Shown: positions 4,247-55,151 of the stretch, piece after piece
Layout: every line of letters starts with the position of its first letter
Position numbering within the stretch: position 1 is the first letter of the stretch
Made by a program: the position numbers and the translations under genes
Source: Alphaproteobacteria bacterium 46_93_T64
GTDB taxonomy: Bacteria > Pseudomonadota > Alphaproteobacteria > Sneathiellales > Sneathiellaceae
DNA length: 64,000 bases
NCBI GenBank assembly: GCA_002163135.1
Contig: MAAN01000035.1
Location: forward strand, 62,001-126,000
Reading direction: 5' to 3'
The notes under the pieces: model-generated
What the model was told of the DNA's origin: nothing
The model's database searches: none
The model's input: the letters and a program-made list of their open reading frames with translations, nothing else

Positions 4247-4969
4247 TTAATACATGTGTTGGCCACCATTGATGGACAGTGTGGATCCGGTAACAAAACC
4301 CGCATCATCGGCTACTAGGAAACATACGCCGCGTGCAATTTCACTAGCTTGACCTAGTCGTCCAACCGGTATTTTCGCAACAATTTTTTCAAGAACAGCT
4401 TCAGGAACAGCTGCTACCATTTCAGTGTCAATGTAGCCCGGTGCAATCGCGTTGACAGTAATACCCTGCCCCGCACCTTCCTGCGCCATAGCTTTTGTAA
4501 ATCCGTGAATACCAGATTTTGCAGCGGCATAATTCACCTGACCATATTGGCCGGCCTGTCCATTGATAGATCCGATATTAACAACACGGCCAAATTTGGC
4601 CGCTCGCATATCTTCAATGGTTACCCGGCACATATTGAAGCAAGACCCAAGATTTGTATCAATAACCGACTGCCATTTTTTAGGATCCATGCGGTGCAAG
4701 GTCCCATCACGGGTAATACCGGCATTATTTACGACAATCTCAATAGGCCCTAAATCCTGCTTCACTTGCGCGACCCCAGCCATGCAAGCATCGTAATCAG
4801 AAACATCCCATTTATATGCACGAATACCTGTTTTTTCGGTGAATTCCTTCGCCTTGGCATCGTCGCCACCATATGCGGCTGCTACCGTATATCCTTTGTC
4901 ATTTAACATGATGGAAATGGCTTCACCAATTCCCCGTGTCCCGCCTGTAACAATAGCTACTCTTCCCAT
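4247..4969 (-). CDS. phaB: Acetoacetyl-CoA reductase
   Basis: A 240-residue short-chain dehydrogenase that reduces acetoacetyl-CoA to (R)-3-hydroxybutyryl-CoA with NADPH, the second step of polyhydroxybutyrate synthesis. GGTRGIG (residues 9-15) is the cofactor motif, NNAG follows the fourth strand, and Ser134, Tyr147 and Lys151 form the catalytic set. The C-terminus (TGSTLSINGGQHMY) is the usual PhaB ending. It begins 28 bases after phaA with AGGGAT upstream of the ATG, so the two are co-transcribed. Confidence 0.95.
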   Translation of the reverse strand: MGRVAIVTGGTRGIGEAISIMLNDKGYTVAAAYGGDDAKAKEFTEKTGIRAYKWDVSDYDACMAGVAQVKQDLGPIEIVVNNAGITRDGTLHRMDPKKWQSVIDTNLGSCFNMCRVTIEDMRAAKFGRVVNIGSINGQAGQYGQVNYAAAKSGIHGFTKAMAQEGAGQGITVNAIAPGYIDTEMVAAVPEAVLEKIVAKIPVGRLGQASEIARGVCFLVADDAGFVTGSTLSINGGQHMY

Positions 4970-4997
4970 GTTTTTTGATCCCTGATCTGAGGTTAGT

Positions 4998-6170
4998 TTA
5001 CCGCTCTACACACATCGCTATACCCATGCCACCACCGATACACAGAGTGGCAAGACCCTTCTTCGCGTCCCGTTTTTGCATCTCATGCAACAACGTTACA
5101 AGAATTCTTGCGCCTGACGCGCCAATAGGATGGCCAATGGCAATTGCGCCGCCATTGACATTCACTTTATCTGTGTCCCATCCAAGTTCTTTGTTCACCG
5201 CGCAAGCTTGCGCAGCGAATGCTTCGTTGGCTTCAACCAAATCCAGATCGTCTGTCGTCCAACCCGCTTTTTCTAGGGCAAGGCGACTGGCCGGAATTGG
5301 ACCAGAGCCCATGATGGAAGGGTCAACACCTACTTGCGCCCAAGAAACAACGCGCGCAAGTGGCTTAAGACCGCGTTTTTCAGCATCTTCTGCAGACATC
5401 ATGACAACCGCTGCGGCTCCGTCATTAATGCCAGAGGCATTACCAGCTGTTACGCTACCACCTTCTTTTTGAAACGCAGTACGCAGACCCGACAATTTTT
5501 CAAATGTGGATCCACCCCGGATATATTCATCGTCACTAACAACCGTCTCCCCTTTACGGGTTTTAATTGTTACCGGTACGATTTCGTCCTTAAACCGACC
5601 TTCTGCCTGTGCAGTTGCGGCTTTTGCTTGTGAAGCTGCTGCAAATTTATCCTGCTGCTCTCTTGTGATTTGCCATTTGGCCGCAACATTCTCGGCTGTG
5701 TTACCCATGTGGTAACCATAGAAAGCGTCAATCAAGCCGTCTTTGAGCATCGTGTCTGTAAACTCCAGACCGCCCATTTTTTGACCATCGCGTAAATGTG
5801 CGCAATGTGGGGCTTGGCTCATGCTTTCCTGACCGCCTGCGACAACCACGCTGCTGTCACCGTTCAAAACCGCTTGAAACCCAAGTGCGACGGCCCGAAG
5901 ACCTGATCCACAAAGCTGATTTACACCCCATGCAGGAACTTCCACCGGAAGGTCTGCGCCAATGGCTGCCTGACGTGCAGGATTCTGTCCCTCGCCTGCG
6001 GTCAGAATTTGCCCAAGGATCACTTCGGACACATCTGAACCTTCCATCTTGGAGCGGTTTAAAGCTTCCCGGATCACAATTTCACCCAATTTGTGGGCAG
6101 GAAGAGCAGACAGACCACCGTTAAACGAGCCAACCGGTGTGCGTACTGCACTTGTAATGACAACTTCCAT
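4998..6170 (-). CDS. phaA: Acetyl-CoA C-acetyltransferase (beta-ketothiolase)
   Basis: A 390-residue thiolase that condenses two acetyl-CoA into acetoacetyl-CoA, the entry step of polyhydroxybutyrate synthesis; it can also run in the breakdown direction. The nucleophilic Cys is at 87 (NQLCGSG), with His347 (GHPIGASG) and Cys377 (CIGGGMG) completing the active site; length matches biosynthetic thiolases. AGAGG stands 6 bases ahead of the ATG. A TGCA-rich region just upstream (6280-6308) may be a PhaR operator. Confidence 0.96.
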
Positions 6171-6279
6171 TTAAGACCTCTTTCTTGACGATAGCTAATT
6201 AAACTTCAATTTACACATAATTTGCGTAACATTAGGAAAATTTTGCATCTATTTACGAAATAACGTTAAAATTTCGCAG

Positions 6280-6308
6280 ATGCAACATGTTTTTGTGCAT
6301 ATGCAACA
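6280..6308. promoter_or_regulatory. TGCA-rich candidate PhaR operator upstream of phaA
   Basis: In the gap between the phaC stop and the phaA start there are two copies of ATGCAACA (6280-6287 and 6301-6308) and the palindrome TGCATATGCA (6296-6305), that is TGC-N4-GCA. Alphaproteobacterial PhaR proteins are reported to bind TGC-rich palindromes, and phaR is encoded 1.5 kb away. The position ahead of phaA fits a promoter or operator for phaA-phaB. The link to PhaR is inference. Confidence 0.5.
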
Positions 6309-6316
6309 AAAATATA

Positions 6317-7552
6317 CTACTGAGATGAAACCCATTGCAACATATTTGCCCACAAACCTTTGGAGGCACTGGACCCAACCACCATCCCTATATGTCCAGA
6401 AGGCGGCGTTACAAGGGACGCGTTCGGTATTTTCTGGGCCAACGCTCTGGCAGAGCCAGGCGGTACAATTCTGTCTGATCTTGGCACAACAATCATTGAG
6501 GGAATAGTAATATATTCAGGATTAATCACCTCCCCTCTTACCAGCCACTTGCAGAGGGCAGGGCGATTTTCCCCATACCACTCAATAAAGCACGAATATG
6601 CGACATTTTTTACAAGAGGTATCCCATCGTTGAGCCAATCTTCAAGCGCAACAAAAGTCTCAGCTCTTTTCTCTGTTTGCACCATTTGATCGAACAGGCT
6701 GAACTTATTCAGACATAAATTTGGATCAAGGTTCGCGAAAAGCGACTGAATTACATCAACGGGCAACTCCCCGTATGTCTGTAATATTGTCTCCCACGTA
6801 ACAGGATTACTGATGATAGCACGCGCACTCTGGCCCAATCCCTCATGGAAATCCCAAGGAGCGGCAATCGTAATGAGGCTTGCAATTTTGTCCTGCTTAA
6901 ACTGTGCTAAAGCTGTCGCAAGCGTGCCTCCCATACAATAACCCGCCAAGTGCAAAGGAGCCTTAGGGAACGATTCTGCTGCAAAATCAAGCGCTGGTGA
7001 CAATACATCCAACAGATAATTGTCCAGACCGTACTCTTTTTCATCTGGCCCTGGCGTTCCCCAATCCACAAGGAGCGGACGGATACCTGCGTCTGCAAGT
7101 GCAGCAACAAAACTGCGCCCCGGCATCAAATCCAGTATGTAAGATCGATTGATTAGCGAGGGAACCAAGAAAACCACGGGTGCCGTCTCAGAAAGTGCTC
7201 CCCCATAATCGAAAAGTGACATTGATCCTTTAGACCATACTGTCGGAGGGGTCGGCATATTTCGGAGATAAGGATGGGTTTGATATTTTTTAATGCCGGA
7301 CATCATTTGCGATAAAAGGCGTTGCCCCTCGTCCCCCAGAGCAAGGGCGAGCTCTGCCACCTCGAATTGGCCAAGTTGAGCCTGTATCTTCTCCGCCTCC
7401 TCTTGCAATTCAGGCAACCAGGCGAGAGTGCCATTTTTTGCCAAAGAAAGAGCGCCGAGAGAACTTCCAAAACTAAGCGTGGATAAAGATAGATGAAGCC
7501 CAAGTGGCCTTGGTCCCGCACGCAAAATGGAGGAAGGTTCTATTCCTGTCAT
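6317..7552 (-). CDS. phaC: Polyhydroxyalkanoate synthase-like alpha/beta hydrolase (short PhaC)
   Basis: A 411-residue alpha/beta-hydrolase of the PHA synthase family. The lipase-like box is GYCMGG with the polymerising Cys at 206; Asp360 (PRSDRIVPP) and His387 (SGHIGMVVG) complete the triad. It would join 3-hydroxybutyryl units into polymer on the granule surface. At 411 residues it is much shorter than class I PhaC (near 590) and longer than class III PhaC (near 355), lacking most of the class I N-terminal region. It overlaps the tiny gene upstream by 4 bases (ATGA). A depolymerase-like role is a weaker alternative. Confidence 0.8.
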   Translation of the reverse strand: MTGIEPSSILRAGPRPLGLHLSLSTLSFGSSLGALSLAKNGTLAWLPELQEEAEKIQAQLGQFEVAELALALGDEGQRLLSQMMSGIKKYQTHPYLRNMPTPPTVWSKGSMSLFDYGGALSETAPVVFLVPSLINRSYILDLMPGRSFVAALADAGIRPLLVDWGTPGPDEKEYGLDNYLLDVLSPALDFAAESFPKAPLHLAGYCMGGTLATALAQFKQDKIASLITIAAPWDFHEGLGQSARAIISNPVTWETILQTYGELPVDVIQSLFANLDPNLCLNKFSLFDQMVQTEKRAETFVALEDWLNDGIPLVKNVAYSCFIEWYGENRPALCKWLVRGEVINPEYITIPSMIVVPRSDRIVPPGSARALAQKIPNASLVTPPSGHIGMVVGSSASKGLWANMLQWVSSQ

Positions 7553-50850: not shown

Positions 50851-52272
50851 CTACGCAAGCTTCCTTGGATCGACCGGAACCATCGCCGCATAGTCATGAT
50901 CTTGCTCAAACAAAGCTGCTGCTTTCAACACGAGATCTTCCCGGTGGGCTGGCGCCATAATTTGCAGACCAACAGGCAATCCAGATTTCGTAAAACCGCA
51001 AGGGATAGAAATCGCAGGACAACTTGTATTGGTTAGCAGATAGGTTTGGGCAAGCCACGCAATATAATTATCGAATTTGACCCCATTTACTTCACGTATG
51101 GATCTAATTTCATGATCGAAAGGCGGCACCATAACCGTTGGTGTCAGCAACAAATCATATATTCCGAAGAAATCTGCAACCCGACCATAAAGGGCACCCT
51201 GCTCTCGCTGCGCCCAACCGATATCTTTAGCAGTTAGCTTAAGACCAGATTCAATATTCCAAATCACATCATCTTTAAGCTGCTCGCGATGGGTATCAAG
51301 TTTCGGACCATGTCCGGCTGCGAATTGTGCGGCTCTCAAAATCTGAAAAATCTCATCGCCACCTGTCAGATCAAAACAGTCTTCTTCCATACCGCTGGTA
51401 TGTTGCATGAAGGATTGCGCAGCCTTAGCGCATATTTCTGCGACTTCCGTATCGATCGGGCATTGTCCTAGATCTGGACTGTAGGCAACGCGGCCAAATT
51501 TCTGCGGACTTTTGATAACTTCCGAATACAAATAATCTGGAGCGGGCAAGCTGATGGGATCAACAATATGTTCCCCCACCATCATATCGAGCATTAATGC
51601 CACATCCGCAACGGTACGTCCCATGGGACCTTCAACAGATCCCACACCAAACGGTAAACCGCTTGGGCCGTGCGCGACCCTACCCGGTGACGGACGAAGT
51701 CCCACAACTCCTGTAAAGCTTGCTGGTATACGCAGACTGCCACCCAAATCACTTCCTTGAGCCAACCAGACCTGACCGGCTGCCAAGGCAGCTGCAGACC
51801 CTCCAGACGATCCACCTGGTGTCTTTGATACATCCCAAGGGTTCGTCGTCGTACCCAAGACCTCATTAAAGGTTTGCGCGCCCGCCCCGAATTCAGGTGT
51901 GTTGGCCTTACCAACGACAATTGCGCCTCGTTTTTCCAGACGCTTGACCATAATGTCTGAATGCGCCGCAATTTGATCCGCGAAAATGGGCGATCCCATT
52001 GTGAAGCGAACATCTTTGACTGGTGTCAGATCTTTAATCGCTATGGGAAGGCCGTGAAGATACCTCGGGCCATGCTCCTCAGAACTTTCTTTCATGATAT
52101 GATGGGCATGCGTTCTGGCCCTCTCAAAACAGCGAATGGGAATGGCATTTACATCATCATCTGTCTCAAGAATGCGGGCTTCGGCCGCGTCGATAAGCTC
52201 AAGCGGGGACACCTCACCCGCCTTCAACTTTTCTACTGCTTCTATGGCAGTTAATTTTATTAAATCTTGCAT
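50851..52272 (-). CDS. Amidase signature-family amidase
   Basis: A 473-residue hydrolase of carboxylic amides. The amidase triad is visible: Lys in AIKDLTPVKDVRF, the cis-Ser in TPGGSSGGSAAALAAG, and the nucleophile Ser in GSDLGGSLRIPAS. Full family length. Substrates range from indole-acetamide to aryl amides and cannot be told here; the GatA role is unlikely without gatC/B nearby. It is divergent from the adenosine kinase gene. Confidence 0.92.
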   Translation of the reverse strand: MQDLIKLTAIEAVEKLKAGEVSPLELIDAAEARILETDDDVNAIPIRCFERARTHAHHIMKESSEEHGPRYLHGLPIAIKDLTPVKDVRFTMGSPIFADQIAAHSDIMVKRLEKRGAIVVGKANTPEFGAGAQTFNEVLGTTTNPWDVSKTPGGSSGGSAAALAAGQVWLAQGSDLGGSLRIPASFTGVVGLRPSPGRVAHGPSGLPFGVGSVEGPMGRTVADVALMLDMMVGEHIVDPISLPAPDYLYSEVIKSPQKFGRVAYSPDLGQCPIDTEVAEICAKAAQSFMQHTSGMEEDCFDLTGGDEIFQILRAAQFAAGHGPKLDTHREQLKDDVIWNIESGLKLTAKDIGWAQREQGALYGRVADFFGIYDLLLTPTVMVPPFDHEIRSIREVNGVKFDNYIAWLAQTYLLTNTSCPAISIPCGFTKSGLPVGLQIMAPAHREDLVLKAAALFEQDHDYAAMVPVDPRKLA

Positions 52273-52374
52273 AACTTATTGATGGCAAAATTTGACGCGG
52301 TTGTACAGCTCTGCCTTGCACCATCGCAAGGAAAGGGTATACTCCGCCGCGCTCATTTAACCGCTGGAGATATC

Positions 52375-53367
52375 ATGAACAACACCCGTTTTGACACCAC
52401 TTGCATCGGAAATGCCATTGTTGATGTGCTCAGCAGGATTGACGATGACTTTTTGACGCAAGAAAATCTTGTCAAAAACTCCATGAATTTAATCGATGAA
52501 GCCCGGGCGGAAGACCTCTATTCCAAAATGGGCAGCGCTGTTGAAATCTCTGGTGGATCTGCCGGCAATACGGCCGCGGGGGTCGCGTCTCTTGGCGCGC
52601 GCAGTAACTATATAGGTAAGGTCCGGAATGATCAGCTCGGCGCGATTTTCGCCCATGATATTCGGGCAACCGGTGTAAATTTTGAAACCAAAATGAGCGA
52701 ACAAGGTGCCGCGACTGCCCGAAGCTTTGTTTTGATAACACCGGACGCACACCGGACTATGAACACGTATCTCGGTGCCTGCATTGAACTGGGACCGGAT
52801 GATATTGATCCAGAAATTATTGCAGCGTCAGCTGTAACCTACATGGAAGGCTACCTGTGGGATCCCGATGGCGGGAAAGCAGCATTTAGAAAAGCCGCAA
52901 AGATTTCCCATGAAGCAGATCAGCGTGTTTCCCTAACTTTGTCCGATAGTTTTTGCGTGGATCGCTTCCGCGACGAGTTTATCGAATTTATTGACGGCGG
53001 CGTTGATATTCTGTTTGCGAATGAAGATGAGATTAAATCTCTCTACCAAACGGACAGTCTTGAAGTGGCTATCGACATAGTTCGCGATAAAGTCGAGATT
53101 GCCTGCGTTACCCGCAGCAGTGAAGGTTCAGTTATCCTGCAAGGAGATACAACGGTTGAAGTTACCGCGGATCGTTCTATAGACGTAGAAGATACAACCG
53201 GTGCCGGTGATTTATATGCCGCCGGTTTCCTGTATGGTTTCACAAAGGGTCGAAGCCTCGCAGAAAGCGGTGCAATTGCTTCTATTGCAGCAGCAGAAGT
53301 TATTAGCCACATAGGCGCACGCCCTGCTGAAAACTTGAAGGACCTGATTGCATCTCGGATGGGTTAA
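52375..53367 (+). CDS. Adenosine kinase (PfkB family)
   Basis: A 330-residue sugar-kinase-fold enzyme. GGSAGNTAAGVASLG is the N-terminal signature and DTTGAGDLYAAGFLYG the second signature with the catalytic Asp. Its closest pattern is the adenosine kinase-like subgroup common in alphaproteobacteria; ribokinase-like substrates cannot be ruled out. The ATG at 52375 has GGAG 7 bases upstream; the frame runs back to 52267 without family-like sequence. Confidence 0.9.
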   Translation: MNNTRFDTTCIGNAIVDVLSRIDDDFLTQENLVKNSMNLIDEARAEDLYSKMGSAVEISGGSAGNTAAGVASLGARSNYIGKVRNDQLGAIFAHDIRATGVNFETKMSEQGAATARSFVLITPDAHRTMNTYLGACIELGPDDIDPEIIAASAVTYMEGYLWDPDGGKAAFRKAAKISHEADQRVSLTLSDSFCVDRFRDEFIEFIDGGVDILFANEDEIKSLYQTDSLEVAIDIVRDKVEIACVTRSSEGSVILQGDTTVEVTADRSIDVEDTTGAGDLYAAGFLYGFTKGRSLAESGAIASIAAAEVISHIGARPAENLKDLIASRMG

Positions 53368-53444
53368 TCTTTTACTGATTGATGCAGCACTTGACAGAGG
53401 AGCAGTGAAGAATCACTGTTAGCCTGTAAAAACACAGGAAAAAC

Positions 53445-55151
53445 ATGACAGTTACTAGCGGCCCAAAAGTACAGGAAAAATCTGGCCGGGGTTGGTGGAA
53501 GACGGAAATCCTCCGACTATACAGTGGCCTTGTTCTTATGCTGTTTCTAACGCTTCATTTGATCAACCATAGTCTTGGTCTGATCTCACTGGAAGCGATG
53601 GAAGCTGGGCGACTTCTGTTTATTGGTATATGGCGCAGTCTTCCCGGAACAGTGATACTGCTGTTGGCAATGATAGTGCATATATTGCTAACGTCTGCAA
53701 AGTTGCTAACTCACCGTTCTTTCAGGCGCATTCCTCCAAAAGAAATCGTCCAAATTACCTTGGGGCTGGCAATTCCCCCCTTGATGATAGGGCATATTGT
53801 GGGCACACGTATTGCCCATGAAAATTTCGGGATAGATGACAGCTATACCTACGTCCTTTATGTGGTCTGGGTTGCAACCCCTATTCAAGCGCTTCTTCAA
53901 ACTGCTGGCCTGATAGTCGCGTGGTCCCACGGCTGCCTCGGACTACATTTTTGGCTTAGGCTGAAGCCATGGTATGAAAAAGCGTACCCATTTCTCTATA
54001 CCACTGCCCTCATTTTACCGATCCTTGCTCTAACCGGTTTTCTTGTAAGTGCAAATGAAGTCGAATTTCTTGCACGAGATACTGCGTGGCAGACACAACT
54101 CTTTCAAAACCTTAATCTAACTCAGGAAGATTTTGCTTGGGCTTATCGCGTTCGAGACAATGGGCTTTACGGCATGATCGCAGCATTGGGCCTACTCCTA
54201 TTGAGCCGTCTATTCTGGTTTATCCATTTTAGGAAAGAACGCTTGGTGACAGTTCATTACCCTGAAGGAAAAGACGTCTCCGCCCCGCCGGGGACAACGG
54301 TTCTGGATATCAGCAAGCAAGGCGGCATTCCTCACGCATCGGTTTGTGGTGGACGGGGACGGTGCTCCACGTGCCGAATACGCATAATTGAAGGCGCAGA
54401 CACCCTTGCACCGCCAAGTGATAAAGAACTTGCCGTTTTAAAACGGGTTGGCGCAATTGAAGGAACTCGTTTGGCCTGTCAGGTCCCCGTGATGGCAGAT
54501 ATGTCGGTCGTGCCATTGCTTCCCGATAAAGCATCGCACAAGCATTCTTTTGCAAAGCCTGCCTATCTTCAAGGACGTGAGAAAGATATTGCGATCCTTT
54601 TTGCAGATTTACGTGCCTTTACCAAATTCTCCGAAGATAAACTGCCCTATGACGTGGTTTTCGTTATCAATCAGTACTTCCGCCACATGGGTGAAGCCAT
54701 AGAGAGTACTGGCGGCCATCTAGATAAATTCATTGGCGATGGCGTCATGGCACTTTTTGGATTGGATGATGATCCTGCCGTAGCCGCCCAAAAAGCTCTG
54801 CAAGGCGCAAAAGCGATGGCAGATGCGTTGGAGGTAATGAATACCAATTTAAAGTCCGACTTAGGCGAACCGTTAAGGATCGGGATTGGCATTCACATGG
54901 GCCATGTGATCATTGGGGAAATGGGGTATGGGAAAGCAACATCTGTTACGGCTATCGGCGATGCCGTAAATACAGCAAGTAGACTTGAAGCTATGAACAA
55001 AGACTATAAAAGCCAGCTCATTTTCTCGGATCGTATTGCTGTGGAAGCTGGCTTTACTGGCCCTACTCAGAAAGAGGAAGTCCTGGTTCGTGGGCGGAAA
55101 TCACCGCTTAATATTCATGTTGTCCAGAGTGCAAGCGAGTTAAAACTTTAA
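53445..55151 (+). CDS. Membrane adenylate cyclase with N-terminal heme-anchor-like and [2Fe-2S] domains
   Basis: A 568-residue protein in three parts. Residues 20-265 hold about six membrane segments with many His (38, 42, 79, 117, 125, 162, 168), like the SdhC/diheme-b anchor of rhizobial CyaC. Residues 267-360 are a ferredoxin domain with Cys301, 307, 310 and 345 (C-x5-C-x2-C...C). Residues 375-565 are a class III cyclase with metal Asp388 and Asp432, Lys428 for adenine and GDAVNTASRLE. It should make cAMP in response to the redox state of the membrane. A variant of this family is known from rhizobia; heme binding here is predicted. Confidence 0.9.
   Translation: MTVTSGPKVQEKSGRGWWKTEILRLYSGLVLMLFLTLHLINHSLGLISLEAMEAGRLLFIGIWRSLPGTVILLLAMIVHILLTSAKLLTHRSFRRIPPKEIVQITLGLAIPPLMIGHIVGTRIAHENFGIDDSYTYVLYVVWVATPIQALLQTAGLIVAWSHGCLGLHFWLRLKPWYEKAYPFLYTTALILPILALTGFLVSANEVEFLARDTAWQTQLFQNLNLTQEDFAWAYRVRDNGLYGMIAALGLLLLSRLFWFIHFRKERLVTVHYPEGKDVSAPPGTTVLDISKQGGIPHASVCGGRGRCSTCRIRIIEGADTLAPPSDKELAVLKRVGAIEGTRLACQVPVMADMSVVPLLPDKASHKHSFAKPAYLQGREKDIAILFADLRAFTKFSEDKLPYDVVFVINQYFRHMGEAIESTGGHLDKFIGDGVMALFGLDDDPAVAAQKALQGAKAMADALEVMNTNLKSDLGEPLRIGIGIHMGHVIIGEMGYGKATSVTAIGDAVNTASRLEAMNKDYKSQLIFSDRIAVEAGFTGPTQKEEVLVRGRKSPLNIHVVQSASELKL

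Follow-up and report, generated by a model that had tools for sequence, protein, structure and literature searches.

Redox control of a membrane-anchored adenylate cyclase has been described for CyaC (SMc01818) of Sinorhizobium meliloti. According to PMC10463352, which cites Wissig et al. 2019 (doi 10.1111/mmi.14251), CyaC is a diheme-B protein; ubiquinone can oxidise or reduce its two bound hemes B, and its cyclase activity is redox-dependent. The same source names K410, T484, N491 and R495 as catalytic residues. Among 6TM adenylate cyclases, a cluster of 30 ferredoxin-linked class IIIb enzymes from alpha- and beta-proteobacteria, for example Rhodopseudomonas palustris Q132R4, was described in eLife in 2016 (cluster 1; PMC4821796). 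Its members have a cytochrome-b-like anchor with four His, from whose spacing two hemes were predicted for the cluster.

Here, we analysed a 64,000-nucleotide stretch of contig MAAN01000035.1 from Alphaproteobacteria bacterium 46_93_T64 (the window), in which one gene encodes a protein composed of the same parts. By sequence comparison, this protein is a further member of the known CyaC family, and all of its parts have already been described or are present there.

Domain composition and kinship with CyaC

The reading frame proposed in the initial annotation at 53445-55151 is correctly placed and intact: it begins with ATG and runs unbroken on the forward strand, encoding 568 amino acids. Features of the locus are as follows.

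52267-53367, forward strand: PfkB-family kinase gene, upstream neighbour (pfkB-cyaC order kept in Sneathiella loci and in some other families)
53445-55151, forward strand: cyaC-like gene, whole open reading frame, 568 aa (open reading frame listing and translation; full length kept in relatives)
53487-54242, forward strand: predicted six-helix membrane anchor, residues 15-266, resembling the cytochrome b of diheme-B quinone oxidoreductases (AlphaFold2 anchor model, structural matches)
53556-53558, forward strand: His38 codon, probable distal heme ligand in TM1 (invariant in 26/26 anchors; weak profile alignment to a D. gigas QFR subunit C His)
53679-53681, forward strand: His79 codon, probable proximal heme ligand in TM2 (invariant in 26/26 anchors; weak profile alignment to a D. 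gigas QFR subunit C His)
53793-53795, forward strand: His117 codon, probable distal heme ligand in TM3 (invariant in 26/26 anchors)
53928-53930, forward strand: His162 codon, probable proximal heme ligand in TM4 (invariant in 26/26 anchors)
54264-54491, forward strand: [2Fe-2S] ferredoxin domain, residues 274-349, ligands C301, C307, C310 and C345 (Pfam Fer2, NCBIfam, Cys in 48/48 sequences)
54576-55097, forward strand: class III (IIIb) nucleotide cyclase domain, residues 378-551 (Pfam Guanylate_cyc; residues correspond to CyaC)

The C-terminal domain matches Pfam Guanylate_cyc at residues 378-551 with an E-value of 3e-19, over the curated cut-off. Its class III catalytic set is complete, with D388 and D432 for metal, K428 and T502 for the base, and N509 and R513 for the transition state; the earlier description of an intact cyclase with the adenine-selecting Lys (K428) therefore stands.

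The known rhizobial heme-anchored cyclase to which the annotation alluded is S. meliloti CyaC, described as a diheme protein. We located its gene on CP090106.1, where it is annotated 'adenylate cyclase CyaC'. The translation has Lys410, Thr484, Asn491 and Arg495 exactly at the positions given in PMC10463352, and because these four residues coincide, we take it to be the studied CyaC or a strain variant of it. Residues 23-568 of the window protein are 40.3% identical to it, and K428, T502, N509 and R513 align with its K410, T484, N491 and R495. Four His of CyaC (27, 68, 105 and 149) align with the four invariant His of the anchor. CyaC also carries Fer2 (Pfam E-value 7.2e-8), its Cys 283, 289, 292 and 327 match the four Cys of the window protein, and the ferredoxin motif CGGRGRCSTCR (SVCGGRGRCSTCR) is identical in both. 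The abstract of the Wissig study is said to report an iron-sulfur cluster in purified CyaC, too. The Fer2 domain and the four Cys of S. meliloti CyaC rule out the initial view of the iron-sulfur part as an addition to the rhizobial cyclase. The claimed novelty fails since the reference protein already has this part, and the architecture as such was published in 2016.

A conserved ferredoxin domain

The Fer2 match at residues 274-349 (Pfam E-value 1.2e-9) is over the curated cut-off, and the cysteine pattern is C301-x5-C307-x2-C310-x34-C345, in agreement with the C-x5-C-x2-C...C ferredoxin first noted. The label "plant-type" attached to it is imprecise: the spacing is not C-x4-C-x2-C, but C-x5-C-x2-C as in NqrF, adrenodoxin and ISC ferredoxins. 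The top NCBIfam matches are NqrF (7.9e-13; 48 of 295 bits, far under the NqrF cut-off) and ISC ferredoxin (1.8e-10). Judged by the spacing and these best matches, the domain belongs with the NqrF/adrenodoxin-like [2Fe-2S] ferredoxins. In a profile search against PDB, the match to NqrF takes in the helix that precedes the ferredoxin domain. The literature search found no paper discussing the role of the ferredoxin in such cyclases.

All four ferredoxin Cys are invariant in 48 of 48 sequences. This conservation, together with the persistence of the domain in anchor proteins lacking a cyclase (see below), argues against a [2Fe-2S] domain that relays no electrons and serves instead as a structural spacer or, through the stability of its cluster, as a sensor of iron or oxygen; we regard such a role as quite improbable.

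The anchor resembles quinone oxidoreductase subunits

The full-length model (pTM 0.42) gave structural matches chiefly to cyclases, and the anchor was therefore modelled separately with AlphaFold2 from 18 aligned anchors, with medium confidence (mean pLDDT 72). This model has six long helices. The initial description of a six-helix, His-rich anchor thus agrees with the model in the number of helices; the number of His between residues 38 and 168 is eight (38, 42, 79, 90, 117, 125, 162 and 168) and not seven. Only H38, H79, H117 and H162 are invariant among 26 diverse anchors, a set that includes S. meliloti CyaC and two anchors without a cyclase. The spacing between them (41, 38 and 45) resembles that in diheme quinone oxidoreductases. 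By analogy with Wolinella succinogenes FrdC, where the heme ligands are His44/His143 and His93/His182, one putative heme would be held by H38 and H117 towards the periplasm and the other by H79 and H162 towards the cytoplasm, closest to the ferredoxin. Both termini are probably cytoplasmic, to judge from the basic residues found N-terminally, behind TM6 and in the loops that join TM2 to TM3 and TM4 to TM5.

The top six structural matches of the anchor model are all membrane subunits of fumarate reductase (QFR) or of succinate dehydrogenase (SQR) (VIA-align Z 9.4-11.7; next unrelated chain 7.1), values that fall under the caution that applies to helical bundles in VIA-align (Z under ~13). The concentration of matches in QFR/SQR and the conserved His make a persuasive case for a diheme-type fold of the modelled anchor. 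In a Foldseek search with the anchor model alone no match fell under E 0.001, and W. succinogenes QFR was at rank 3. At the sequence level, the anchor profile had no significant match among solved structures, the best relevant one being D. gigas QFR subunit C (E 3.6, two His aligned), and Pfam Sdh_cyt reached E 0.0019 at best, in 2 of the 26 members. Given this weak sequence similarity to solved quinone oxidoreductases, the heme assignment rests on His conservation, the medium-confidence model and CyaC kinship.

Most 6TM cyclase anchors fall into other clusters, which lack the heme signature (PMC4821796), and for most of them regulation is unknown in the literature (PMC9552081), as would suit an anchor that binds no heme and is a mere membrane receptor for a ligand. 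The four invariant His, the QFR/SQR fold matches and the kinship with diheme CyaC speak against such a receptor, which we consider highly improbable here.

Phyletic distribution and genomic context

Eighteen contigs of the Sneathiella group contain relatives of the window protein, with identities of 53-85%. Among 385 evenly drawn alphaproteobacterial genomes, about 100 (a rough count) contain a relative that matches along most of its length. Given these relatives across the Sneathiella group and alphaproteobacteria, the architecture is not due to chance. In a maximum-likelihood tree, the window protein falls within the Sneathiella clade, adjoining an uncultured alphaproteobacterium.

The order amidase-pfkB-cyaC / HIT-hisE-hisF-hisA is kept in Sneathiella loci, and the pfkB-cyaC pair also occurs in several other families at ~50% identity. 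In the window, the PfkB-family kinase gene lies directly upstream on the same strand (52267-55151 for both genes), and the pair may share an operon. The cyaC frame appears broken in two genomes, truncated in Sneathiella glossodoripedis (L016) and with split matches and one TGA at G392:C12:700773-702298; each may be a pseudogene or a sequencing error. Two candidates for natural two-gene versions (G348 and G079) look like frame-broken fusions and were set aside.

Parts of the architecture in other combinations

Several relatives lack one of the parts. In L058 (3420-4580, forward strand) and L059 (2971-4095, reverse strand), a CyaC-like His anchor with Fer2 but without a cyclase is encoded next to an MscS-family channel gene (4577-6508 and 767-2974, respectively), with a 4 bp overlap in both cases; the channel genes match Pfam MS_channel_2nd with E-values of 6e-12 and 3.8e-16. 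The same pair is seen in a third genome at a contig edge (L073). The pairs are diverged (anchors 31%, channels 35%) and come from two families, and the pairing is therefore conserved; it is possible that it forms a redox-controlled channel. These cyclase-free proteins point to heme and cluster as a portable unit.

Other relatives are soluble. A 333-aa Fer2-cyclase without a membrane anchor is encoded in L061 (2008-3009, forward strand). In L062 (1711-3222, forward strand), a gene between guaB and guaA encodes a 503-aa protein with two CDGSH domains, Fer2, a class III cyclase, in which Asn apparently replaces the adenine-selecting Lys, and a Rieske domain. A second species has the same CDGSH2-ferredoxin-cyclase-Rieske protein at 87% identity (L085). 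Both this protein and the anchor-Fer2/MscS pairing look newer than the window protein.

The anchor-free proteins of L061 and L062 suggest that a cyclase can make do with ferredoxin alone, in the absence of hemes. Ferredoxins of the NqrF/adrenodoxin type exchange electrons with flavoprotein reductases. Both points would fit a ferredoxin that is the main redox input, with a cytosolic reductase or partner charging the cluster and the diheme anchor only draining or supplying quinone electrons. Against this, control by quinone and heme is what has been published for CyaC, and the window has no reductase gene next to the cyclase gene; on the whole we think this arrangement unlikely.

Discussion

We consider it very likely, by analogy, that the window protein is a redox-regulated adenylate cyclase of the CyaC family, in which a diheme anchor, a [2Fe-2S] domain and a homodimeric class IIIb cyclase would report the respiratory redox state. 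The gene, its domains, the conserved ligands, the fold match and CyaC kinship are the basis here, and the heme and redox behaviour we infer from S. meliloti CyaC. Two b hemes would be stacked across the membrane in the six-helix anchor, with H38 and H117 holding the one on the periplasmic side and H79 and H162 the one on the cytoplasmic side, and would exchange electrons with the ubiquinone pool, whose state would set theirs. The [2Fe-2S] domain would sit directly under the anchor, beside the cytoplasmic heme, and lead into the cyclase homodimer; its cluster may serve as a relay that links the heme to the cyclase or to a cytosolic partner. Depending on the redox state of the hemes and/or the cluster, the cyclase dimer would then be rearranged and the rate of cAMP formation altered, and cAMP would report the respiratory redox state to CRP-type regulators. 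The conversion of quinone or redox state to cAMP envisaged at the outset fits the CyaC family, given what is published for S. meliloti CyaC; the contrast with a rhizobial cyclase devoid of an iron-sulfur part does not hold.

The organism's own genome has five matches to cNMP-binding domains, and these proteins are possible receivers of cAMP. Approximately a dozen class III cyclase domains were seen in the same genome (G000 contigs C1, C13, C19, C21, C22, C24, C33, C34 and C41), and cAMP signalling there is consequently crowded, as it is in S. meliloti.

A wider reading is that of a true electron-transfer device, in which quinone, both hemes, the [2Fe-2S] cluster and a partner in the cytosol would exchange electrons, the cyclase would read the flow or the state of the cluster, and the portable heme/ferredoxin module would in some bacteria report to other effectors, e.g. 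MscS channels. We put it forward as tentative and, on balance, doubtful. The modularity itself (anchor-ferredoxin without cyclase, ferredoxin-cyclase without anchor) offers naturally occurring proteins in which the roles of heme and cluster could be told apart. With the window protein, the known redox-to-cAMP sensor family is extended to Sneathiella, with gene and neighbourhood kept across the genus.

Compared with known systems, the predicted anchor fold is like that of QFR/SQR membrane subunits such as W. succinogenes FrdC and Desulfovibrio gigas QFR subunit C, the latter aligning two of the four anchor His in a weak profile match (E 3.6). FrdC has five helices, and the anchor here thus has one extra C-terminal helix; it is fused to ferredoxin and cyclase, whereas FrdC-type subunits bind FrdAB instead. 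In NqrF, too, a [2Fe-2S] domain with C-x5-C-x2-C comes after a membrane helix, but the FAD/NADH reductase part of NqrF is absent from the window protein. Compared by description, cluster 1 (PMC4821796) shares the cytochrome-b-like anchor, the four His, the ferredoxin between membrane and catalytic domain and class IIIb, and no defining difference was found. The parts of S. meliloti CyaC follow one another as they do here: 6TM anchor, Fer2 and class III cyclase. S. meliloti belongs to a different order of bacteria from the Sneathiella group, and its cyaC adjoins the TetR regulator gene cycR, which is not a neighbour of the cyclase gene at the window locus, where pfkB lies upstream and a convergent HIT-hisE-hisF-hisA group adjoins.
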